Shown one piece after another: positions 1 through 29,230 of a stretch of 30,494 nt of DNA. Made by a program: the position numbers and the translations under genes. The notes under the pieces are model-generated. The model had not been told where the DNA came from, did not search any database, and saw nothing but the letters and a program-made list of their open reading frames with translations. This DNA comes from a virus. Each line of letters begins with the position of its first letter. Position 1 is the first letter of the stretch. The stretch lies in the IMG/VR virus record IMGVR_UViG_3300022074_000238, positions 1-30,494 of that record. One strand, written 5' to 3'.

Positions 1-82
1 TGTTTTTAGTTAGTTTTGTTTTTTTTGTGTATTCTAGTTATCAGTGGTTGTCGTATGTTTTCACAGGAGGGGGAACTTAAAA

Positions 83-1525
83 ATGGAAGTTAAACATAAA
101 ATAATAAAAGACTTGGAGGAGCTTGCAGTTCCAATTGATAAGTTCAAAGCTCTGCCTGGTAATCCTAGGAAGGGTAACGTTGAGGCTGTTGTTAAAAGCT
201 ACGAAAAGTTTGGCCAACGAAAGCCAATAGTTGCAAGACGAGAAAAAACAGATCTCGGTGAGTTGCTTGTAGTTATCTCTGGTAATCATCAACTGATGGC
301 TGCGACAAAACTTGGGTGGACTCACATTGCTGCGACAGTTGTTGATGAAGATATTTCTGTATCTGAGGCTTTTGCTTTGGCTGACAATAGAACAGCTGAC
401 CTTGGAACTTATGACGATTCTGCTTTGGCTGAAATGTTAGAACGTGTTGCTGTTGATGAGTCGATGCTTGATGCTACTGGTTATGACTTGTCTGACCTTG
501 AGAAATTGCTAGGTATGGATGTTGACTTGCCTAGTGAAAAAGAACTAATTGAAAAGCCTAAGGTTCCAATTACTCAGCCTGGTGATGTTTATAAACTAGG
601 AGATCATTATCTTGTTTGTGGATCAGCCACAGAGGTTTCAAGTTATGCAAATCTTAAAAATCCTGCACAGTTATGTCTTACTGACCCACCGTATAATGTT
701 GCTTATAAAGATTCACAGGGTCGTGAGATTGAAAACGATAAAATGGCAGAAGCTAAATTTACAGAGTTTTTGTATGACGCTTTGTCTTTGATTCATTCTT
801 TTACTGATGGAGCGGTCTATATGTTTTATGCAACTGCCGCAACTCGTTCAGTCTTTGAAGCCTGGGACAACGCAAAGATGCACTACTCGTCCAACATTAT
901 TTGGGTAAAAGATTCATTTGTTTTAGGTCGTTCTGACTTCCATTGGAGGTTTGAGCCGATTATGTATGGTTGGCCTGAAGGCAAGAGTCATTATTTTTTT
1001 GGTAAGAGAGACATATCTAATGTTTGGGATGATGTTGAGTCTGAGTCTTTAGGCAATGCTCAACTAGATACTTTTGAAAATGGTTTTAATTTAACTGTTG
1101 ACCTAAATGAAAAAGCAAAGGCTGAATATTTTTTAGATCATATAAACGATGCTAAAAATGAAGAGTTAAGTCTTGGTCTGTTTTCAAAAAATGGTGAGGA
1201 GTTTGTTGATGGTTCTCGTAACTACAGCATTGCTGACATGGTTTGGGGTCCTGCTAATGTTTGGAATATTCCTAAACCTAGAAATAACAAAGAGCATCCG
1301 ACAATGAAACCATTGGAGCTTTTGTCTAGAGCTGTTATGTATTCAAGTAAGCCTGGGGACTTCGTTCTTGACCCTTTTGCAGGTTCAGGTTCTACGTTGA
1401 TAACTTGTCAGGCTATGGGTCGTAAGTGTTACACGATTGAACTTGACCCTGGTTATTGTGATGTAATCGTTGACAGATTCACAAGTGCTTACCCTGATGA
1501 GCCTGTTAAGAGGATTCGTGGGTAA
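83..1525 (+). CDS. ParB-like domain fused to N4/N6 DNA methyltransferase
   Basis: This 480-residue protein is predicted to methylate adenine N6 or cytosine N4 in DNA. The N-terminal ~120 residues read as a ParB/Srx-like domain, with PGNPRKG near residue 26 and SGNHQLMAA near residue 66. The catalytic part follows: DPPY at residues 201-204 and DPFAGSG at 430-436. Motif IV before motif I is the beta-class order. I chose ATG 83 over an in-frame start at 44 because an AGGAGGGGG Shine-Dalgarno lies just before it. The small terminase gene overlaps its stop. Such fusions are common beside phage terminase genes, and no restriction enzyme gene is visible. The family is clear; the methylated site and base are not. 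Confidence 0.92.
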   Translation: MEVKHKIIKDLEELAVPIDKFKALPGNPRKGNVEAVVKSYEKFGQRKPIVARREKTDLGELLVVISGNHQLMAATKLGWTHIAATVVDEDISVSEAFALADNRTADLGTYDDSALAEMLERVAVDESMLDATGYDLSDLEKLLGMDVDLPSEKELIEKPKVPITQPGDVYKLGDHYLVCGSATEVSSYANLKNPAQLCLTDPPYNVAYKDSQGREIENDKMAEAKFTEFLYDALSLIHSFTDGAVYMFYATAATRSVFEAWDNAKMHYSSNIIWVKDSFVLGRSDFHWRFEPIMYGWPEGKSHYFFGKRDISNVWDDVESESLGNAQLDTFENGFNLTVDLNEKAKAEYFLDHINDAKNEELSLGLFSKNGEEFVDGSRNYSIADMVWGPANVWNIPKPRNNKEHPTMKPLELLSRAVMYSSKPGDFVLDPFAGSGSTLITCQAMGRKCYTIELDPGYCDVIVDRFTSAYPDEPVKRIRG

Positions 1526-2030
1526 GCGAGGACCACTTCCAAAGCCTTCGGACGAAGCTCAAGGGCATAGGTCTCGTGAATTGCAGATCATTTCAGGTCA
1601 CTCTGAGCTTAAGACTTCCCCACCGAAGCCAACACGTGGCTGGTTAAAGGGAACACGTGACCGTTGGTATGAATATTGGGACTCAGATGTTGCGGGTGTT
1701 GCTCAAAAGGTTGACCTGCCTGCTGTTGAGCGTCTGTTTGGAATGTATGACCAATATGCAAGGGTTCAAAAAGTTGTAAAAAAGTCACTTGTGGTTCGTG
1801 GTTCAACTGGACAAATTAGAACTAATCCATTAGCGGAGCATGCTCTAAAACTAGAAACGCAAATATTGAGGCTAGAGAATGAGTTGGGTCTTACTCCGAT
1901 GGCTCGTCAAAGACTTGGCATTGCTGTTGGTGAGGCTGCTACTTCTCTAGCGTCAATCAATGATTTGTTAAACGCAAGCGATGACGCTGCGACTGACCCT
2001 AGGATTTTAGAACTCCTGGAGGAAGAGTGA
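1518..2030 (+). CDS. terS: Terminase small subunit (P27-like)
   Basis: This 170-residue protein should recognise phage DNA and start packaging with the large terminase. The N-terminus GKRGPLPKPS matches the G-[RK]-RGPxPKP opening of P27-type small terminases. A helical middle (LEIQILRLE-like segment) and an acidic tail follow. GTG 1518 is preferred because this opening begins there and AGAGGA sits just upstream; the frame stays open back to ATG 1470, deep inside the methyltransferase gene. The stop overlaps the next gene as GTGA. Unusually, two cytosine methyltransferase genes separate it from the large subunit. Assignment rests on the opening motif and on position. Confidence 0.78.
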   Translation: MGKRGPLPKPSDEAQGHRSRELQIISGHSELKTSPPKPTRGWLKGTRDRWYEYWDSDVAGVAQKVDLPAVERLFGMYDQYARVQKVVKKSLVVRGSTGQIRTNPLAEHALKLETQILRLENELGLTPMARQRLGIAVGEAATSLASINDLLNASDDAATDPRILELLEEE

Positions 2031-2665
2031 ACGTTATAGAATTATTTGCTGGCAGTTGCAGTTTTTCTGATGTTGCAAAGGAGCGAGGTCACAAAACAAT
2101 CACGTCTGATAATGGAAAGGATTTATTTACTGTTGAACAGTTTTCTAAAATTAATTTAGTTGAAAACATTTTATTTTTAGAGTCTGATGTATTTGTAAAT
2201 TTTAAGCCTGATGTCATTTGGGCTAGTCCACCTTGCACTTATTTTTCCGTATCAAGTATCGGCAAGCATTGGAATAAAGACAACACTCCTAAATCAACTG
2301 AGGCTGTTCTTGGTGTTAAGTTAGTGCAGAAAACTTTTGAACTTATAAATCAGTTAAATCCACAGTTTTACTTTGTTGAAAATCCTAGGGGTAAGTTAAG
2401 AAAACTAGATTTTATGAGCGAATATAAAAAGCAGACTGTTACGTATTGTCAGTATGGTGATGAGAGAATGAAGCCAACTGACATATGGACTGACTCGTCC
2501 TGGGTTGGACGTCCAATGTGCAACTATGGTGACGATTGTCACGAGTCTGCACCTCGTGGTTCTACTTGGGGAACGCAAGGACTTGACAATGCTTTTGAAA
2601 GGTCAAGGGTTCCTGAGGAGCTTTGCTTAGAGATCATCAAATGGTTGGAGGTCAAGTGCGTGTAG
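2027..2665 (+). CDS. Small cytosine-C5 methyltransferase-like protein
   Basis: This 212-residue protein resembles a shortened cytosine-C5 DNA methyltransferase. It opens with NVIELFAGSCS, an SAM-binding motif I of the FxGxG type. WASPPCTYFS near residue 65 is the catalytic PPC motif IV, and FVENPRG near residue 118 replaces the usual ENV. No C-terminal motif IX/X (RxLxxxGNAV) is visible, so the target-recognition part is reduced or differs. The GTG start at 2027 overlaps the preceding stop and follows GGAGGAAG. It lies directly before a full-length cytosine methyltransferase. Small phage proteins of this type are often annotated as DNA methylase; activity is unproven. Confidence 0.75.
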   Translation: MNVIELFAGSCSFSDVAKERGHKTITSDNGKDLFTVEQFSKINLVENILFLESDVFVNFKPDVIWASPPCTYFSVSSIGKHWNKDNTPKSTEAVLGVKLVQKTFELINQLNPQFYFVENPRGKLRKLDFMSEYKKQTVTYCQYGDERMKPTDIWTDSSWVGRPMCNYGDDCHESAPRGSTWGTQGLDNAFERSRVPEELCLEIIKWLEVKCV

Positions 2666-4083
2666 GCAGTTTGTTTTCAGGCATTGGGGGTCTTGAGTAT
2701 GGTCTTGAACGTGCAGGTCTTGTGACTTCTCATGAGTGGATGATTGAAATGGATGAGTATTGTTGCACGGTCTTGCGTAAAAATTTTAAGAATTGTTTAA
2801 TAATTAATGATAAAGTTGAAAATATAAACCCTAGGGACTTGCCTGGAATTGATATTTTAACGGCTGGGTTTCCTTGTCAGCCTGTATCTGTTGCTGGTAA
2901 TCAAAAGGGTTTGAATGATGAAAGGTGGTTATGGGATGAAGTTTGGCGTTTTGTCAATGATTTACGACCGCGATACTTCCTCGTGGAGAATGTCCCGGGG
3001 ATATTTACAGCAAATAAAGGCGAAGCAATCAACAGAGTTCTCAAAGATATTGCCGAGAGCGGGTTATATCGATTTGAGTGGCAGGTTATTTCAGCTAGAT
3101 CCGTTGGTGGTCCACACTTACGCAAGCGATTCTTTGGAGTTGGGACGTTGGGAGACTCCAAACACCATGGACCACTTGCCGGCAAGGACAGGGGACGCTT
3201 ACGTCAAAGCTCTGCACCGGGGAGACCTAACCAAAAACACGAGGAGGACTTCAACTGGGAACTTGAGAGAAAATCCCAAGGTGACCGGGAACTGGCCGAC
3301 TCCAACGACAAAGGGCTACAGAGCATCGGAGGGCGAGGTCATGATAATGAGAGCCGAAGTAGAGAAGGGCAACTTGACGGAAGAGGAAGCCGAGACGATG
3401 TTGGGTTCGACGCTGCGTCCACCAAGGATGAAGGCTTGGCCGACTCCATCAACTCAAGACAACGAGCACGAGGACTTGAAGTTAAACGAAAAGGGCAGAA
3501 GGAAAGCAAAGAACGGAGGCGAGAGCAGATCATTAAATCTAGCCGACAAGGTTCAGGTTCAGTCCTGGTCGACTCCGAGAGCAAGTCAGGCCAGCAAACC
3601 AATAAATCAAAAGGCACCAAGCGTAAAAAACAAAAAGCACGGCTCGACTCTAGAGATGGACGTGGGGGAACGCAACAAAAAACTAATAGGTCGGAGGCTC
3701 AACTATGGATGGGTGGCACGGCTGATGGGCTACCCAGATGGATGGCTCGACTTGGATTAGTGAATGTTTGGATTGGTAACACTCAAAAGTTTAGCACTCC
3801 TATCACAAGTTCTAACCGTCCAAGCACTAAAAGAATATTAGAAGGTAATAATCCAAAAAAAAATTTAGCAGAAGACCCGAAGATTTATTTCGAGGAGGGT
3901 TATGACTTGTGGGAGTACGGAATGCCACGGTCCAAGGATGAATACCCTGGTCGTGTTGACAAATTAAAAGCATTAGGAAATGCTGTAGTTCCTGAATGTG
4001 CAGAACTTGTTGGTCGTCTTATTAAACGTGCTGATGAGCTTGGCACTATGGTTTTTGATTTAAGTTTATTGGAGGAGGAATGA
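2656..4083 (+). CDS. dcm: DNA cytosine-C5 methyltransferase (Dcm-like)
   Basis: This 475-residue enzyme is predicted to transfer a methyl group from SAM to cytosine C5 in DNA. Motif I is SLFSGIGGLEYGL, the catalytic motif IV is GFPCQPVSVAG, motif VI is FLVENVPG, motif VIII is HLRKRFFGVG, and the C-terminus carries KLKALGNAVVPECAE (motif X). GTG 2656 lies five bases after GGAGG and overlaps the preceding gene. Between motifs VIII and X is a long, low-complexity, charged insert with repeated L-x-D-S motifs (3148, 3292, 3436, 3565). That insert is co-encoded with a second open frame. The stop overlaps the large terminase start (ATGA). Target site unknown. Confidence 0.9.
   Translation: MRVGSLFSGIGGLEYGLERAGLVTSHEWMIEMDEYCCTVLRKNFKNCLIINDKVENINPRDLPGIDILTAGFPCQPVSVAGNQKGLNDERWLWDEVWRFVNDLRPRYFLVENVPGIFTANKGEAINRVLKDIAESGLYRFEWQVISARSVGGPHLRKRFFGVGTLGDSKHHGPLAGKDRGRLRQSSAPGRPNQKHEEDFNWELERKSQGDRELADSNDKGLQSIGGRGHDNESRSREGQLDGRGSRDDVGFDAASTKDEGLADSINSRQRARGLEVKRKGQKESKERRREQIIKSSRQGSGSVLVDSESKSGQQTNKSKGTKRKKQKARLDSRDGRGGTQQKTNRSEAQLWMGGTADGLPRWMARLGLVNVWIGNTQKFSTPITSSNRPSTKRILEGNNPKKNLAEDPKIYFEEGYDLWEYGMPRSKDEYPGRVDKLKALGNAVVPECAELVGRLIKRADELGTMVFDLSLLEEE
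2936..3760 (+). CDS. Overlapping-frame WPTP-repeat protein within the Dcm gene
   Basis: A 274-residue frame lies wholly inside the cytosine methyltransferase gene, one base out of phase. It resembles a phage protein type found with Dcm genes: an N-terminal DTSSWRMSRG, then ILPRAGYIDLSG. Next come W-[EPS]-T-P repeats near 3149, 3293, 3437 and 3566, then a C-terminal VARLMGYPDGWLDL. Each WxTP is made by the same bases as an LxDS motif of the methyltransferase. ATG 2936 follows AAAGGTGG by seven bases; ATG 2915 is an alternative. The function of the family is not known to me. It could be a methyltransferase partner or specificity part. The match is from memory of the motif pattern, and translation is unproven. 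Confidence 0.62.
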   Translation: MKFGVLSMIYDRDTSSWRMSRGYLQQIKAKQSTEFSKILPRAGYIDLSGRLFQLDPLVVHTYASDSLELGRWETPNTMDHLPARTGDAYVKALHRGDLTKNTRRTSTGNLRENPKVTGNWPTPTTKGYRASEGEVMIMRAEVEKGNLTEEEAETMLGSTLRPPRMKAWPTPSTQDNEHEDLKLNEKGRRKAKNGGESRSLNLADKVQVQSWSTPRASQASKPINQKAPSVKNKKHGSTLEMDVGERNKKLIGRRLNYGWVARLMGYPDGWLDLD

Positions 4084-5528
4084 GTAAAATCGTTTTGCCT
4101 GAGACTCGTGGTAGTCGTGTTGTTAAGTTCATTCAAAACTTCTGCGTGCATGGTGAGGGTGACTTTTACGGTCAGCCGTTCCGTTTAGATAATTGGCAGA
4201 GGCAGATTATTTATCATTTGTATGAATTAAATGATCAGGGTCAGCGTCAGCATCGTGAGGCTCTACTTGGAGTTCCAAAAGGTAACGGCAAGAGTGCATT
4301 GATTTCTGCTCTTGGTCTTTATGAACTCCTAGGCAACGGCACCACTTCCCCACTTGTAACTGTTGCAGCTGCTAGTTTTGAGCAAGCTGATATTGTCTTT
4401 GGAAACATGAGGAGCATGTGCGAACAATCCCCTTATTTGAAATCTCTGACCGAGGTTTATCAAAATTCTATAGGTGTCAAGGGTGGTCCTGGTCGTGTTT
4501 ATCGTGTTGCTGCAAAGGCGGGAACTGCTGACGGTGGACGAAACTCTGCGTTTATAGCGGATGAAGTTCATGAATGGTCAACTCCAAACTTGCAAAGAGT
4601 TCACTATGTTTTGTCCAACAACACGGCTAAACGTCAGGATTCTTTAATTTTAAATATTACTACTGCTGGTTATGACCTGGACACGCTTTGTGGTCGGCTT
4701 TATTTAAGAGGTAAACGTAAACAATCAGGTGAGTCTAAAGACCCTGATTTTTATTTTTATTGGCTTGAGCCTGATGAAAATGATGACTTTGAAAGTGAGG
4801 AAACCTGGGCAAAGGTAAACCCTGCAATTGCAGGTGGTTGGTGGCCGATTGATAATTTACGAAGGCGACGAGCTGCTTTGCCACTTCCTGAGTTTCAAAG
4901 ATACCATCTTAACATGTGGACTCGCACTCAGGATGAGTCCTGGTTGCCTGAGGGTCTTTGGACTGAGCTTGCTGATTCTTTTGAGCTTGAGCCATCACTC
5001 CCCACTTATGTTGGTGTTGATATGGCTATTAAACACGATTCTGTTGCTGTTGTTTGGGGTCAAATGGGCGAGGATGGACTGATCCGTGTGGATTCAAAGA
5101 TTTGGCGGAACGATGGAGTTATGTTTGATTATGCTGAGGTGGAGACCTTTATTGTTAATTTAAACCGTAATTTTAACCTGGTTGAGGTTGCATATGACCC
5201 TGCATTTTTTGAGCGGTCTGCTCAAGCTCTATATGACCAGAACGTTCCAATGGTTGAGTTTCCTCAATCTCACGGCAGGATGGTTCCTGCTTGCGGTCTC
5301 AGTTATGAAGTCATAACATCTAAAAAATTAAGGCATAAAAATCAATCTACTTTTAATGATCAGGTTTTAAGTGCTGTATCTCGTCCAACTGATAGAGGTT
5401 TTAGATTATCAAAAGGTAAAAGTAAGAGAAAGATTGACGGTGCTATAGCCATGGTGATGTGCCTGGACAGGTTGACGTATCCAACTAGGCCACCTGAGGA
5501 TTCCAATGTAGGTATAGTAGAGTGGTGA
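4080..5528 (+). CDS. terL: Terminase large subunit
   Basis: This 482-residue DNA-packaging motor drives DNA into the prohead and cuts it. The ATPase part has Walker A GVPKGNGKS at residues 64-72, Walker B FIADE with the acidic pair near 161-162, and a coupling segment LILNITTAGYD. The nuclease part has VGVDMAIKHDS with Asp 314, and KIDGAIAMVMCLDR with Asp 453, as in RNase H-like terminase nucleases. Length suits the HK97-type family. The ATG overlaps the preceding stop (ATGA), and GGAGGAGGA supplies the ribosome site. A small membrane-peptide gene and then the portal follow. Confidence 0.95.
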   Translation: MSKIVLPETRGSRVVKFIQNFCVHGEGDFYGQPFRLDNWQRQIIYHLYELNDQGQRQHREALLGVPKGNGKSALISALGLYELLGNGTTSPLVTVAAASFEQADIVFGNMRSMCEQSPYLKSLTEVYQNSIGVKGGPGRVYRVAAKAGTADGGRNSAFIADEVHEWSTPNLQRVHYVLSNNTAKRQDSLILNITTAGYDLDTLCGRLYLRGKRKQSGESKDPDFYFYWLEPDENDDFESEETWAKVNPAIAGGWWPIDNLRRRRAALPLPEFQRYHLNMWTRTQDESWLPEGLWTELADSFELEPSLPTYVGVDMAIKHDSVAVVWGQMGEDGLIRVDSKIWRNDGVMFDYAEVETFIVNLNRNFNLVEVAYDPAFFERSAQALYDQNVPMVEFPQSHGRMVPACGLSYEVITSKKLRHKNQSTFNDQVLSAVSRPTDRGFRLSKGKSKRKIDGAIAMVMCLDRLTYPTRPPEDSNVGIVEW

Positions 5529-23970: not shown

Positions 23971-24090
23971 GAAACCGAGCCAAAACCGAGCCATTTAGCA
24001 TGTTTTATCTCGGTTTTAGCCTGGTATCTCCTATCGTTCTTGCTTATTTGCGTAAAAGGTCGGTGGTGTCCTACTCTCCCCATGGTTTGT

Positions 24091-24131
24091 GGAAACTATG
24101 GAAACTATGGAAACTATGGAAACTATGGAAA
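24091..24131 (+). repeat. Direct repeat GGAAACTAT, four copies plus GGAAA
   Basis: Perfect 9-bp units begin at 24091, 24100, 24109 and 24118, and a partial fifth at 24127. They are the left half of a larger symmetric array with the TTCC units at 24161-24200. Confidence 0.95.
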
Positions 24132-24160
24132 GAAAACGGCATATTTTTTGGGTCTTAGTT

Positions 24161-24200
24161 TTCCATTAATTCCAATAATTCCAATAATTCCAATAATTCC
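24161..24200 (+). repeat. Direct repeat TTCCAATAA
   Basis: TTCC recurs every 9 bp at 24161, 24170, 24179, 24188 and 24197. The middle three units are perfect TTCCAATAA and the first is TTCCATTAA. This is the right half of the dyad; each TTCC mirrors a GGAA on the left about a centre at 24145/24146. Confidence 0.95.
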
Positions 24201-24227
24201 GAGCCAAACCGAGCCAAAACCGAGCCA
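24199..24227 (+). repeat. Helically phased CCGAGCCA boxes, right cluster
   Basis: CCGAGCCA begins at 24199, 24209 and 24220, spaced 10 and 11 bp, so all face the same side of the helix. Two more copies lie at 23975 and 23986 on the other side of the 9-bp arrays. An inverted relative (CTCGGTTTTAGC) lies at 24009. Confidence 0.9.
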
Positions 24228-24305: not shown

Positions 24306-24758
24306 ATGACCGAAAATATTAAGCCAACTGAAAAACAGAAGGCTTTACTTAAAGCTACTGGTTTTGTCAGTAGTAAAAATCAACAGATCAGCTGCGATTG
24401 TGGTTGTGATGTTCGTGGTTTAACTGAGTATCAGTTATCTGCGTATAGAAAAAATACGGAGCTCAAAAGTTATGAGACTTATAATCCTGAAAGAAAAGTA
24501 AACGAGTTAGTTACTGTGCCTAAGCACTTTAAGAACCGTGAACATCTTTGGGGTGTATCTCTTGGGCATCATGAGAGTGAGATAAGAGCTTTTAGTTCAG
24601 CTCTTGCAATGGTTAGAAAAGTTGCAATTGATATCTTGCTTACTCAGGAACTTGCCGACTCTATCGAGTGGTTTGAGTTTTGGAGTGAGGATGAAAAACT
24701 TGCTGTTCTAAAAGTTGAAGGTGACGAAATCGTCAGCGCAGGTCTTGACCGTGGCTAG
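24306..24758 (+). CDS. Hypothetical early protein with Cys cluster
   Basis: This 150-residue protein is the first gene after the repeat locus and has a strong AAAGGAG site in the shared leader. Near residue 30 it has SCDCGCDVRG, a compact Cys cluster that could bind metal. The remainder has a charged, helix-rich look (HHESEIRAFSSALAMVRKV, then SIEWFEFWSEDEKLAVL). I recognise no family. Its place, before small genes and the integrase, suggests an early or lysogeny-related role. The next gene overlaps its end by eight bases. Confidence 0.72.
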   Translation: MTENIKPTEKQKALLKATGFVSSKNQQISCDCGCDVRGLTEYQLSAYRKNTELKSYETYNPERKVNELVTVPKHFKNREHLWGVSLGHHESEIRAFSSALAMVRKVAIDILLTQELADSIEWFEFWSEDEKLAVLKVEGDEIVSAGLDRG

Positions 24759-25116
24759 CGTTGGTATCACTACTTGTAAGCACGGCACTCCCCTGCATGA
24801 GCAGGGTGAGGTCGGTAGTGGTGATTGGTTTCATTCTAAAAAGTGCACAGCTGAGTATTGTCTGCCTATCCCTTTTGACCCTCGTCATTTCAAAAATGAG
24901 AGCGTCATTGAATGGGTTGACGGTGGCTATCTTGAGTCGTTCTCTTGCGAAGGGCATGAGGGCGAGTGCGATAGTTATGCTCGTGACGTTGCAGGTCCTG
25001 ACAGGTGTGCTGAGTGTGGCTACGGTTTTGAGGACGTTGAAGACCTTAATGACCCAAGTTATCCAATGCATATGTGGAAGCATCCTATATGTCCTGGAGG
25101 TGACTTCCGTGGCTAA
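24751..25116 (+). CDS. Cys/His-rich hypothetical protein
   Basis: This 121-residue protein starts at GTG 24751, overlapping the preceding gene, with AGGTC upstream. ATG 24715 is in frame but lies inside that gene. It is rich in Cys and His: TTCKHG, KKCTAEYC, SCEGHEGEC, and CAECGYGFEDVED, which has the form of half a zinc ribbon. The C-terminus is MWKHPICPGG. These spacings suggest two metal sites, but no named family is recognised. The next gene overlaps its end. Confidence 0.7.
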   Translation: MASVGITTCKHGTPLHEQGEVGSGDWFHSKKCTAEYCLPIPFDPRHFKNESVIEWVDGGYLESFSCEGHEGECDSYARDVAGPDRCAECGYGFEDVEDLNDPSYPMHMWKHPICPGGDFRG

Positions 25117-25354
25117 AGATAAAAAATTCATTCTCAATATTGAACTTCCTACAACTATCGAGGTGATGGCTAGTGATTGGCGAGAAGCCAAAGAGTTAGG
25201 TAATCAACTCATGTATGGAGTAAATATTGAGTTAAAACATAAAAAAGAACTAATTGACAAGGTTGTGAAGTTAGAAGTTCACGACATGAATGTTGACGAA
25301 GTTCTTGACGAAAATGGCGAGTTTCCAAAGGGTTCATTTGGAGAGGAGGAATAA
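25109..25354 (+). CDS. Small charged hypothetical protein
   Basis: This 81-residue protein begins at GTG 25109, eight bases after GGAGG; GTG 25100 is in frame but lies on the ribosome site. The frame is open much further upstream, but that part is the shadow of the Cys-rich gene. The product begins AKDKKFILNIELPTT, has a helical middle, and ends in an acidic tail. The lone beta-strand opening and charged helices suggest a small regulatory or binding protein; the family is unknown. TAATG joins it to the next gene. Confidence 0.62.
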   Translation: MAKDKKFILNIELPTTIEVMASDWREAKELGNQLMYGVNIELKHKKELIDKVVKLEVHDMNVDEVLDENGEFPKGSFGEEE

Positions 25355-25512
25355 TGGCTAAAGGTAAAGGTATCAATAAGGCAACACAATTAACTTATCA
25401 GCTTATCGTTCATGACCATGGATTTGATGTCTTGAGCGTAGAGTTTGCTAAGGCTTTAGAAAAAGAGCATAGAAGGTTACTTCGACTACCTGCCGATAAG
25501 GTGGTGGAATAA
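25354..25512 (+). CDS. Small hypothetical protein, 52 residues
   Basis: This frame is joined to both neighbours by one-base TAATG overlaps and has a GAGAGGAGGA site. The product opens MAKGKGINKATQLTYQLIV, contains HDHGFDVLSVEFAKALEKEH and ends in LPADKVVE. The helix-rich pattern could be a compact DNA- or protein-binding unit. I recognise no family. Confidence 0.62.
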   Translation: MAKGKGINKATQLTYQLIVHDHGFDVLSVEFAKALEKEHRRLLRLPADKVVE

Positions 25513-25706
25513 TGCCGAAGGTAAAAATACCAAGTTCTGTTTTAAACAGTTTAGAAACTGTTAGGAGTTCTGGTCTTGTAAATATGGCTGACTTGCGTGG
25601 TATCAAAGAGTTGGTGCCTACGGAGGTTAGTGAGTGGCTTGATAGGAATAAATCTCTCTACATGGAGGGTTTCTTTTATGGCTTTGAAGCTGAGGAGGTT
25701 CAATAA
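25512..25706 (+). CDS. DUF5049-like small protein
   Basis: This 64-residue protein has LNSLETVRSSGLVNMADLRGI, then a helix with EWLDRNKSLYMEGFFYGFE. The pattern [IL]-x-x-VR-SG--NM-D, a spacer, and a final Y---[IF]--G matches the small phage family DUF5049, whose function is unknown. It lies immediately before the integrase and is joined to it by a TAATG overlap, so the two are probably made together. Confidence 0.62.
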   Translation: MPKVKIPSSVLNSLETVRSSGLVNMADLRGIKELVPTEVSEWLDRNKSLYMEGFFYGFEAEEVQ

Positions 25707-26902
25707 TGGCTTGGACTCATATTCGTAAACGTGAAACTAAAAAAGGCACGGTTTATCAGGCAAGTGTTAAAGAAGTTGTTGAGGGTAAAGATAAAACAAT
25801 TTGGTCAGGGACCTTCAAAACTAAGGGCGAAGCTCAAGCGTCTGTAACTGAGTATCTTGATGGTGTTAATAAAGGCACCATCAAGCATGTTGTTGACAAG
25901 ACTAATTTTAAAGCGTTTTGTCTAAATGTTTGGCTGCCGTCTTGCCGTGTAAAAGTTGAACGTGCTGAAACTTTAAAAAAGTATCAAATGTATTTGGATA
26001 ATCATTGGATGGAGCACTTTGGGTCTTTGAAAATGACAAAGATTGACTCTGTAATGCTTAACCGTTGGCTTGAGGTCAAGCGTGCTGAGGGCTTGTCTGA
26101 GGGCTACCTTGCTCGTTTACAGGGTGTTTTAAGCTCTGTATTTGAGTTGGCTGTTGAGACAAACTCCCTGGGCACAAATCCAATGAAAAAAAAGGCGACT
26201 GTTCGTGTCAAAATTCCAAAGACCAACCGTGACGCTTATTCTGTTGAGGAGGTCAGGGGTATCTTGGCTTATATCAAAGATAACGACATGATCAGGCGTG
26301 ACTATTTTTTCTTTTATCTTGCTTTGACGACAGGTCTTAGACGTGGGGAGCTTTGTGGTATAAGGCTTGAGGACATCAAGTATTCTGCTGATGGGCTGAC
26401 TTCCGTCATTTCAGTCACTAAACATGTTGAAAAAGTAAGAGATGGAGGACGAACCGTAGACTTTGTTGGGTCTAGCTCAAAGAAAAACCATAACCGTATG
26501 GTTCCTCTTGACGTCAGCTCAACTGCCGAACTTAAAAGGCACCTTGAGAGATGTCACTCTGGCGAGGTCTATGGTCGTTCCTGGAACTCCAACAATGAGG
26601 ACCGTGATATTTGGTCCAATGACGGTTGGTTATTCCATCGTGGTAATGGTCGAGCTGTTGTGCCTGACTCTTACACTGCCGCTTTTAAGCGATATTGTAA
26701 GCAGGGAGGTTTCCGTTATATGGGACTTCACGCTACTCGTCATACTGTTGCTACAGGTTTGCACCGTGCAAACGTTCCTATTGGCACTTCTGCCACTCTC
26801 TTGGGTCAAACTCCTGAGACGTTCTTACGCACTTATGTTCACATCTCGGATGATGACCTTGTTGCTGGCCAATCAGCTTGGGCTGATGAACTAAAAAACT
26901 AA
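25706..26902 (+). CDS. int: Tyrosine recombinase integrase
   Basis: This 398-residue protein should integrate the phage into, and help excise it from, the host chromosome. The N-terminal ~60 residues look like an arm-binding AP2-type domain (WTHIRKRETKKGTVYQASV in outline), followed by a core-binding domain at ~70-165. The catalytic domain has Arg 212 in TTGLRRGEL, H342-x-x-R345-H346 in HATRH, and Tyr 377 in FLRTYVH. All key residues are present. A strong bidirectional hairpin follows. The likely attP should lie close by, but no host att sequence can be identified. Confidence 0.95.
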   Translation: MAWTHIRKRETKKGTVYQASVKEVVEGKDKTIWSGTFKTKGEAQASVTEYLDGVNKGTIKHVVDKTNFKAFCLNVWLPSCRVKVERAETLKKYQMYLDNHWMEHFGSLKMTKIDSVMLNRWLEVKRAEGLSEGYLARLQGVLSSVFELAVETNSLGTNPMKKKATVRVKIPKTNRDAYSVEEVRGILAYIKDNDMIRRDYFFFYLALTTGLRRGELCGIRLEDIKYSADGLTSVISVTKHVEKVRDGGRTVDFVGSSSKKNHNRMVPLDVSSTAELKRHLERCHSGEVYGRSWNSNNEDRDIWSNDGWLFHRGNGRAVVPDSYTAAFKRYCKQGGFRYMGLHATRHTVATGLHRANVPIGTSATLLGQTPETFLRTYVHISDDDLVAGQSAWADELKN

Positions 26903-27431: not shown

Positions 27432-27686
27432 ATGATTGCAAACGCACAACCCTGTCGTATACGTTCGAGTCATCCACTCCGTTCTTTAAATTACAAACAG
27501 GGCGACACAGTTCATTTAATTTATTCAAGGCATCCTAGTGAGATCATTGAATATAAAAATGCAATTTTCAAAAAGTGTCAGGTGCGAGGTTCTGTTGATT
27601 CAGTTATTTTTTCTTATAACAATGTTCAGTATGTTCTACCCTTGCATCAAATTGGTGTTATGGGGGTAGATATTGCAAAGCTCTGA
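27432..27686 (+). CDS. Early hypothetical protein
   Basis: This 84-residue protein is the first early gene to the right of the operator-like region. ATG 27432 is ten bases after GGAG; TTG 27426 in the same frame is four bases after it and is an equal alternative. The sequence reads beta-rich (GDTVHLIYSRHPSEIIEYK, then VIFSYNNVQYVLPLHQIGV). I recognise no family. The HTH gene overlaps its end by 14 bases. Confidence 0.62.
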   Translation: MIANAQPCRIRSSHPLRSLNYKQGDTVHLIYSRHPSEIIEYKNAIFKKCQVRGSVDSVIFSYNNVQYVLPLHQIGVMGVDIAKL

Positions 27687-27846
27687 CGATTTAATGACAG
27701 TTGCCGAAGTCTGCAACTTGTTAAAAATTTCAAAGTCTAGCGTTTATCAAATGGTAAATGATGGACGCTTGCCGTCTGTTAAGTTGCCTGGTGTTCGTAG
27801 ATTTTTTATAAAACGTTCTGATTTAGAGGAGATATTTAATGGATGA
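27673..27846 (+). CDS. HTH DNA-binding protein, excisionase/MerR-like
   Basis: This 57-residue protein starts at TTG 27673 six bases after GGGGGT; ATG 27694 is an alternative. It contains the excisionase/MerR-type helix-turn-helix: MTVAEVCNLLKISKSSVYQMV, then DGRLPSVKLPGVRRFFIKRSDLEEI, in outline. The T-x-E-x---L-IS--T-Y--V pattern and the wing with R-F-I-R-DLE are characteristic. It may act as an excisionase with the integrase or as an early regulator. Genes overlap on both sides. Confidence 0.8.
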   Translation: MQSSDDLMTVAEVCNLLKISKSSVYQMVNDGRLPSVKLPGVRRFFIKRSDLEEIFNG

Positions 27847-28273
27847 TAAATTATTGGAGCTGTTGGTTCCATTTCCAAAAGATTACATAAAAGAAAAACC
27901 GGGCAAGGCTCAAGCGTCTTATGTTCAACATGGTGTTGTGCGTCAACGCTTGCTAGACGTTCTTGGTTTTTACGAATGGCAGATAGACCGTGAGATATTT
28001 AATTCTGATGGATCATTAAGTGGTTGCGTTGGAACTCTTACAATTTTTCTCGATGGCATGCCGTTAAAAGTTTCAGGTTCAGGTGATGTTGAACGAGACC
28101 AAGGTTCAAATGGTGCAAATCTTAAGCATGCTGAGTCTGATGCTTTTAAACGTGCTGCTATGAATTTGGGACTTGGTTTGCATTTATGGTGCGGTGATGA
28201 ATATTTTATATATAATAAAAATAAAAAAAAGGGTGAACTATCAAATGAGCAAGCCGAGGCTGATAATTCATGA
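27839..28273 (+). CDS. Rad52-like single-strand annealing protein
   Basis: This 144-residue protein probably anneals complementary DNA during phage recombination. KAQASYVQHGVVRQRLLDVLG, then FYEWQIDRE and a beta-sheet region through VGTLTIFLDGMPLKVSG, lead to GSGDVERD and LKHAESDAFKRAAMNLGLGLHLW in outline. The K-AESDAFKRA---LG-G--LW block is the Rad52/Sak signature. Its length fits the core without a tail. It is joined to the HTH gene before and the WhiB gene after by overlaps, in an early operon. Confidence 0.82.
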   Translation: MDDKLLELLVPFPKDYIKEKPGKAQASYVQHGVVRQRLLDVLGFYEWQIDREIFNSDGSLSGCVGTLTIFLDGMPLKVSGSGDVERDQGSNGANLKHAESDAFKRAAMNLGLGLHLWCGDEYFIYNKNKKKGELSNEQAEADNS

Positions 28274-28964
28274 ATTTGAGGAAGATGCTTATTCGAGTGA
28301 GTGGTTTGCTAGGGCTAGTTGCTTTGGTCTTAGGACTTCGTTATTTTTTCCAAGCAATCCAAGAGAACACACGGATTTCCAACACTTTGAGTCGCATCTT
28401 ATCTGCCTTGGGTGTCCTGTAATGGACGAATGTGTTGCTACTTCTGTTATCCGTAATGATGACCAAGGGTTTATGGGTATCCCTGGACTCAATCGTCAAA
28501 AATTAGACTTAAATTCAAACGTTAAAAATGCTATAAAAAGAGCATCTCTTGAGTTCAACAATCTTGAACCACAGTTTTCTCGTGAAGGTAGGTTAATCTC
28601 AAGACGTTGCGTATCTTGTCACAGACGTGTTAAAAAAATTCCTATCAATAATAATGATTGGGGTGGTCGTCAATCACGTTGTGCGTCATGTCTTGTCAAT
28701 AACAAAAAGCCTGGAGTCCGTCAGTCAACTGCCGCACCAATCTTTAATGAGTGGGGTTCTTTAATTTCAAAAGTTTGTAGTAAGTGCAAAGAAAGAAAGC
28801 CAAGTATTGAGTTCTCTAAACGTGATAAAGGGATTGGACAGACTAAGTCGTGGTGTAAAGCCTGCGTAGTAAACTTTGAGAAGGCTTGGCGGTCTAAAAA
28901 GAAAAAGGTTAAAGATCTTAAAACTCCTGAGCAAATTGTAAAAGAACAGAAAGGTTTTAAATAA
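28245..28964 (+). CDS. WhiB-like protein fused to two zinc ribbons
   Basis: This 239-residue protein begins like a WhiB regulator: Cys 26 in RASC, Cys 54 and 57 in CLGCPV, and Cys 63 in ECVAT. The spacing C-x27-C-x2-C-x5-C suits a 4Fe-4S or redox cluster, and GFMGIPG stands in for the family's G-[VI]-WGG turn. From ~115 there are two related Cys4 units, each opening with E/W-G-x-LIS and holding C-x2-C near residues 120 and 172, with a second C-x2-C downstream of each. The C-terminus is basic. WhiB proteins bind sigma factor or DNA; the ribbons may add DNA binding. ATG 28245 follows AGGGTG. Confidence 0.85.
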   Translation: MSKPRLIIHEFEEDAYSSEWFARASCFGLRTSLFFPSNPREHTDFQHFESHLICLGCPVMDECVATSVIRNDDQGFMGIPGLNRQKLDLNSNVKNAIKRASLEFNNLEPQFSREGRLISRRCVSCHRRVKKIPINNNDWGGRQSRCASCLVNNKKPGVRQSTAAPIFNEWGSLISKVCSKCKERKPSIEFSKRDKGIGQTKSWCKACVVNFEKAWRSKKKKVKDLKTPEQIVKEQKGFK

Positions 28965-29230
28965 TGAACCTTGATGATGCCTGGTTTAAACAAATTGGGG
29001 ATAAATTAAGAAAGAAAAAGAAAGACGGCATCGTTCTCTTGCCTTGGCGACATGGTGTTGCTGATTCTCTACGGCATACTGTTCAGTTCATTCGTCAACA
29101 AAAAGACGAGGACTTTGCTTGCGTCACTAAAATCAATGATTCTGAATATGTAACAATTCCCTTTACTTTGTATGTCAAGTTGCTTGAAACTTACAAAACA
29201 GCCGAGTCTTTGAAAAAAGAGGAGCTTTAA
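28964..29230 (+). CDS. Hypothetical early protein, 88 residues
   Basis: This protein starts at a TAATG overlap after the WhiB-like gene. It opens NLDDAWFKQIGDKLRKKKK, continues DGIVLLPWRHGVADSLRH and TVQFIRQQ, and ends in a Lys/Glu-rich helix. The R-H-x-x-x-D-S-L pattern could form a compact alpha/beta fold, but I recognise no family. The stop overlaps the next ATG (TAATG), so it is made with the replication gene that follows. Confidence 0.65.
   Translation: MNLDDAWFKQIGDKLRKKKKDGIVLLPWRHGVADSLRHTVQFIRQQKDEDFACVTKINDSEYVTIPFTLYVKLLETYKTAESLKKEEL

Follow-up and report, generated by a model that had tools for sequence, protein, structure and literature searches.

A mirrored 9-bp repeat array in a putative 5S rRNA attachment site of marine actinobacteriophages

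Ten short repeats stand between the structural and the early genes of a virus, five in one orientation and five in the other. What are they for, and which protein would read them? The window (the whole stretch of DNA that was analysed) is a 30,494-base IMG/VR contig. Methylase, small terminase, head and tail genes extend to 23904, the site follows, and the early region beyond it encodes an integrase, an Erf-type annealing protein, a WhiB-fusion protein, a replication-initiator-like protein and an HNH protein. A first-pass annotation had placed the site at the late/early boundary, and the gene order agrees. N6/N4 and C5 DNA methyltransferase genes lie on either side of the small terminase gene (44-5528). 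The WhiB-domain protein (28173-28964) has a C-terminal fusion part that matches endonuclease VII and Lar-like families. A blastn search with the site returned zero matches among GenBank phages. An Rfam scan of the site gave chance-level matches only, the 5S core described below being too short for the model.

The mirrored array and the attachment site around it

GGAA motifs occur at 24091, 24100, 24109, 24118 and 24127, in exact 9-bp steps, and TTCC motifs at 24161, 24170, 24179, 24188 and 24197. The two sets mirror each other about 24145.5. All ten positions were re-found as first reported, as was the innermost pair of units, ATGGAAA and TTTCCAT. The left half-array consists of five 9-bp units of the form (Y)GGAANNNN (24090-24134, plus strand). 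The right half-array has five 9-bp units, WTTCCNNNN, in the opposite orientation (24159-24200, minus strand). The mirrored array is real and well beyond what chance would produce. At a single constant step of 7-12 bp, an exact 4-mer recurs up to 5 times in succession in the window, compared with up to 3 in each of 60 first-order Markov control sequences, and Tandem Repeats Finder scores the two arrays at 84 and 73. The spacers do differ between the halves, as had been noted, and the site is not one simple palindrome: complementarity outside the TCC is 2.52/6 for mirrored units and 2.48/6 for non-mirrored units. Because mirrored units are no more complementary than the others, the dyad points to the geometry of a protein and not to a hairpin.

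A feature that the first-pass annotation missed lies to the left of the array: bases 24055-24080, on the minus strand, repeat the 3' end of a 5S rRNA gene (GGGAGAGTAGGACACCACCGACCTTT as the reverse complement). This core is identical at 23 of 26 positions to the 5S 3' ends of Ca. Actinomarina in the window, and at 21-25 of 26 in the relatives. Two genomic insertions, described in the next section, have ends inside this core segment. The box CCGAGCCA is found at 23975 and 23986 (11 bp apart) and at 24199, 24209 and 24220 (steps of 10 and 11 bp), with no further exact copies anywhere in the window. The first-pass description of two boxes left of the array and three right of it is therefore confirmed. 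The left pair comprises two copies of AAACCGAGCCA at an 11-bp step (23975-23993, plus strand). On the right (24199-24227, plus strand) the boxes at 24209 and 24220 form a conserved pair, and the third overlaps the last TTCC unit and is present in the window and relative L002 only. An inverted relative of the box, earlier noted at 24009, was recovered (TCTCGGTTTTA, about 24006-24016) as part of a degenerate extra arm-type site (24004-24016, minus strand). Judged against the arm sequence of each phage itself, the closest match lies inverted at -65/-66 from the core T in the window, L002, L003, L007, L025 and L028; it is tied second in L008 and absent in L004. The 4-letter specificity of the boxes varies by phage (CCGA, CTGA, GGGA, TCGG, GGTG), and the left and right boxes change together. 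From this layout, and from the integrase gene, the boxes are presumably integrase arm-type sites.

The integrase gene (25706-26902, plus strand) begins 1.6 kb downstream of the core. It encodes a tyrosine integrase with arm-DNA-binding and SAM-like N-terminal domains (PF00589 7e-17, PF14659 8e-6, PF14657 3e-4; phrog_1 8e-54). A 5S-like core, a tyrosine integrase 1.6 kb downstream and 11-bp direct-repeat pairs on both sides together make the site a well-supported candidate for the attP of a temperate actinobacteriophage, one that would integrate at the 3' end of the host 5S rRNA gene. The features of a tyrosine-integrase attP are found here: identity of core and attB, arm repeats on both sides and a nearby int gene, as well as integrated forms with attL and attR, represented by two integrase-less elements at 5S. 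A small Cys-rich protein is encoded between the site and int (24715-25116, plus strand) and in relatives is kept as the gene directly preceding int. The minus-strand gene that the first-pass annotation offered as a possible binder (24733-25191) is a spurious frame antisense to this conserved gene.

The integrase led to relatives L003-L009 and a core-plus-array pattern to 11 viral contigs; all of them have a 5S-like core at the homologous site. Distances were counted from the T of TCCTACTCTCCC in 10 distinct sites, nine of which have both halves readable; the L078 site is cut off on the right and was left out of the right-half counts. Position -94 is the start of the left arm pair in each of the nine phage sites. 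GGA stands at +22, +31, +40, +49 and +58 in 10/10 distinct sites, with the exception of a substituted fifth unit in L004. In each of the 9 measurable sites, 11 bp separate the last TCC from the conserved right arm pair. The gap between the halves is 35 bp in the window, L002, L003, L025 and L030, 34 bp in L004, and 25 bp in L007, L008 and L028, with which L078 agrees. From these fixed distances, the left half is locked to the core and the right half to the arms, and the centre alone varies, by about one helical turn. The whole 5+5 array occupies the 120 bp that separate the core from the right arms, that is, the int-proximal arm.

The halves are convergent in all nine sites where both can be read. 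In the right half the three TCC letters are kept in 45/45, 43/45 and 44/45 units, and across the nine sites TCC or GGA is retained in 43-45/45 units in each half. The flanking letters are weakly conserved and the spacers drift between sites, without the covariation between halves that a hairpin would show. The frame is shared by other phages whose spacers differ, and the exact repeats of the window are therefore probably homogenised copies. The first-pass annotation had proposed that relatives be searched for loss of symmetry or freely varying unit numbers; when this was done, the 5+5 plan and the symmetry proved to be kept while the spacers drift. An array-only pattern matched 44 stretches in the viral collection. 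The new ones were nearly all repetitive coding sequence, and one, L078, is a 5S-type attP, the tenth of the family, with a one-base change in its core (GTTCTACTCTCCC).

A rho-independent terminator is found immediately left of the core in L004 (about 4930-4960) and L030 (5030-5070). In these cases integration would give a terminator back to the rRNA operon. No obvious terminator is present left of the core in the window phage.

Integrase-less elements at the host 5S gene

The core-plus-array pattern has exactly one locus in 84,980 genomes. This is L030, in Candidatus Actinomarina AG-333-E10, where the 5S gene lies at 5072-5188 on the minus strand. The element spans L030:2980-5080 and measures 2,094 bp from core to core. 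It reads, in order, 5S, left arm pair, a single large gene, right arm pair, the full 5+5 array and a second core. The cargo is a predicted AIPR/AbiU-like anti-phage gene (AIPR, PF10592 3e-34; PADLOC AbiU 1e-17). The element contains no integrase, and the sole phage-integrase-family gene of the genome encodes a 300-aa protein elsewhere that is probably a Xer recombinase. An additional 156-aa ORF (L030:2456-2926) sits between the outer core copy and the host gene that directly follows 5S in L036; it is perhaps an older insertion.

A second element was found by reading the 5S flanks across the order Ca. Actinomarinales, in which only the L030 and L047 genomes have arm-like pairs beside 5S. The L047 element (L047:700-1530) has 799 bp between its core copies and both arm pairs, and it also lacks an integrase. 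Its cargo is one 202-codon frame with a HIRAN domain (7e-5). Insertion is shown by the DNA past the second core, which is 83% identical over 160 nt to the post-5S DNA of the uninterrupted L044. The right arms are identical to those of phage L007, and the array is cut down to the last two TTCC units. L047 remains integrated after losing most of its array, which shows only that the array is dispensable for remaining in place. The loss fits an element that may no longer be able to leave.

The integrase scan found no full prophage of this phage family at 5S in 42 Actinomarinales genomes, and an integrase pattern scan of genome contigs gave unrelated stretches only. A class-level search with the exact 5S end of the window found no host. 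The window phage is linked to Ca. Actinomarinales by the cassettes and the 5S core. The first phages of Actinomarinales have been reported, with one prophage in tRNA-Val and prophages described as rare (PMC7771536). In the part of the open literature covered, nothing relevant was found on the 5S rRNA gene as an integrase target; papers on T. nautili and Aeromonas mention 5S rRNA, but not as an attB.

The cassettes (0.8-2.1 kb, with a single cargo gene) may have copied the entire attP of the phage, in which case the phage integrase and excisionase would move them. That two integrase-less cassettes occupy the same 5S site suggests that borrowed phage attachment machinery lets a streamlined marine bacterium acquire genes one at a time, a predicted anti-phage gene among them.

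The candidate excisionase and its rivals

The first-pass annotation saw no candidate binding protein adjacent to the array. An excisionase-family wHTH protein is nevertheless encoded 3.4 kb from the site, downstream of int (27673-27846, plus strand), in a gene below the size limit of the first list of ORFs. The predicted directionality factor is 57 aa long and has a TTG start. It matches PF12728 (1.1e-15) and phrog_66 (2.5e-8), and by sequence it belongs to the excisionase family, scoring 51.8 bits against TIGR01764 'excise' (7e-14) where the cut-off is 28.8. The gene is present in 5/5 related records that cover the region, and the other records appear to end before it. In Foldseek and VIA-align the best matches of its AlphaFold model were BldC-DNA complexes and Pukovnik Xis, with weak scores (E 0.055, Z 3.1) and a moderate model pLDDT of 76. 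It does not belong to the BldC family (NCBIfam HTH_BldC 18 bits, cut-off 77). A viral scan with the protein by peptide patterns gave no confirmed match, which is a limit of that method. A 64-aa gene just before int (25512-25706) was also considered as an excisionase and rejected: it occurs only in the window and L002/L009, and the other phages have the Cys-rich gene.

The array is most likely a landing strip for the excisionase of the phage. We consider it probable that the 57-aa wHTH protein binds the 9-bp units of this attP as two opposed filaments and thereby switches the reaction to excision. The integrase would engage the 5S-like core through its catalytic part and the CCGAGCCA-type arm boxes, left and right, through its N-terminal domain. 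The excisionase would place one protomer on every 9 bp, head-to-tail, building a five-protomer filament over each half-array, and the two filaments would run towards each other in opposite directions. Given that the halves are locked to the core and the arms, and that helical phase is preserved across the centre, binding of the array would give the 140 bp of arm DNA a defined folded shape. The folded arm would bring the right arm pair and the bound integrase ends to the core, and the reaction would then turn to excision, as with other directionality factors. Against this binder, its fold match is weak and the label 'excisionase-family' also takes in ordinary regulators. We advance more tentatively, as rather doubtful at present, the combined proposal of a new intasome plan, in which two convergent excisionase filaments zip the int-proximal arm into a folded unit between core and arms, together with integrase-less cassettes that parasitise the phage integrase and excisionase.

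The strongest rival keeps the attP and assigns the array to an architectural protein of the actinobacterial host, which would bend or bridge the DNA and fold the arm in the place of IHF. In lambda, the IHF site lies between the core and the P' arms. The array likewise lies between the core and the int-proximal arm, its centre keeps helical phase, and L030, an element without any phage gene, retains all of it. The arm boxes, moreover, change along with the integrase but the GGA/TCC core does not, and on that account a host protein could be the binder. Against this, ten sequence-specific 9-bp units are unlike known IHF or mIHF sites, and conserved along with the site is a phage wHTH protein whose family is known for binding 9-bp repeats. 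We regard the host protein as unlikely, although worth keeping in mind.

A much smaller chance is given to the array as a set of extra integrase sites, of a second arm-type or core-type class. Such sites would account for its rigid register with core and arm pair alike, but the unit looks unlike both the arm boxes and the core halves, the array evolves independently of the arms, and ten additional sites are more than an Int tetramer would need. Slightly less probable again is an operator array for a repressor that controls the early/int operon only. That operon begins downstream of the arms, at a distance of about 80 bp, and some RDFs, Apl among them, double as regulators (PMC7498355). The half nearest to the core is, however, locked to the core and not to a promoter, and the integrase-less L030 keeps the array without an early/int operon.

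Among the readings first offered, an operator array for a cooperative protein was of the right kind, whereas a replication origin and a partition site found no support. Iteron-like direct repeats at the late/early boundary recall an origin or partition site, and a replication-initiator-like gene lies at 29230 (phrog_9474 3e-26). This gene is 5 kb from the array, and no initiator or par gene is adjacent. Iterons beside an initiator gene and independent of att, as in an iteron origin, are not what is seen: in every relative the array is part of attP and holds a constant register with core and arms, and non-coding viral matches to the array-only pattern are nearly all beside a 5S core. The GC-skew analysis proposed for an origin was run and shows no switch at the site. 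An origin or partition site is highly improbable. An RNA or DNA hairpin, a repetitive peptide or a functionless slippage repeat is barely credible, for although the window copies are nearly perfect tandem repeats, the RNA fold has a z of -1.76 and a 70-aa TTG frame crosses the array, the spacers drift while unit number and phase stay, the halves lack covariation, no reading frame survives the centre changes of 10 and 1 bp, the core consists of rRNA sequence and free unit numbers occur in none of the 10 sites.

Significance and comparison with known systems

With the excisionase as the preferred binder, the locus supplies a complete and testable set of parts (core, arms, array, integrase and candidate excisionase) for the way in which phages of uncultured marine actinobacteria integrate, with 5S as the target. 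Its convergent 9-bp arrays would illustrate how a BldC/Xis-type excisionase builds a folded arm of fixed geometry.

The closest layout is that of the attP of mycobacteriophage Pixie (Cluster K3), which has arm sites of about 11 bp, with a pair on the left, three direct sites on the right and one inverted site on the left (PMC3203893). The arms described here are arranged in the same way. As in Pixie and CrimD (K1), the tyrosine integrase gene lies downstream of attP, the core copies the 3' end of a structural-RNA gene and Xis is encoded further right, theirs being MerR-like (PMC3203893). The target here is a 5S rRNA gene, whereas the targets given there are tRNA or tmRNA genes. A convergent 5+5 array of 9-bp units fills the right arm here, and none is described for Pixie in the available part of that source (PMC3203893).

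The integrase-less elements resemble CIMEs, the cis-mobilizable elements that lack an integrase and have att ends (PMC5704250). Those of L030 and L047 similarly retain both att ends without an integrase. What sets them apart from CIMEs is a length of only 0.8-2.1 kb, arms that match a phage family, a position at 5S and, in one of them, a lone predicted anti-phage gene.

Known RDFs bind tandem direct repeats cooperatively in the att arms and bend the att DNA (PMC7498355). The wHTH RDFs compared were lambda Xis, P2 Cox, 186 Apl, Pukovnik Xis and RdfS (PMC7498355, PMC11963761). The present system is like them in its small excisionase-family protein and in its tandem attP sites next to the Int arm sites, about one turn apart and five to each half, and a DNA-bending cooperative filament would be expected. 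In those systems the sites are repeated directly and in a single orientation, mostly at 10-11 bp, and Apl has five to seven of them. The int-proximal arm described here has ten, spaced at 9 bp and divided into two halves of opposite orientation. Ten RDF sites in two convergent halves are not among the published descriptions compared, as far as those accounts were available.

The 9-bp step is that of BldC and not the 10-11 bp of Apl. BldC binds with one protomer per 9-bp direct repeat, head-to-tail, at the consensus AATTNNNN(C), and bends the DNA; it is a wHTH protein without a dimerisation domain and occupies variable numbers of repeats (PMC5859096). The right half-array reads AATTCCNNN at 9-bp steps, compared with the AATTNNNN(C) of BldC. 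Both systems have 9-bp direct repeats with an AT-rich half followed by C and a wHTH protein that lacks a dimerisation domain, and BldC is the nearest fold to the candidate, with weak scores. However, BldC is a developmental regulator and not an excisionase, and its arrays run in one direction, whereas those described here converge.
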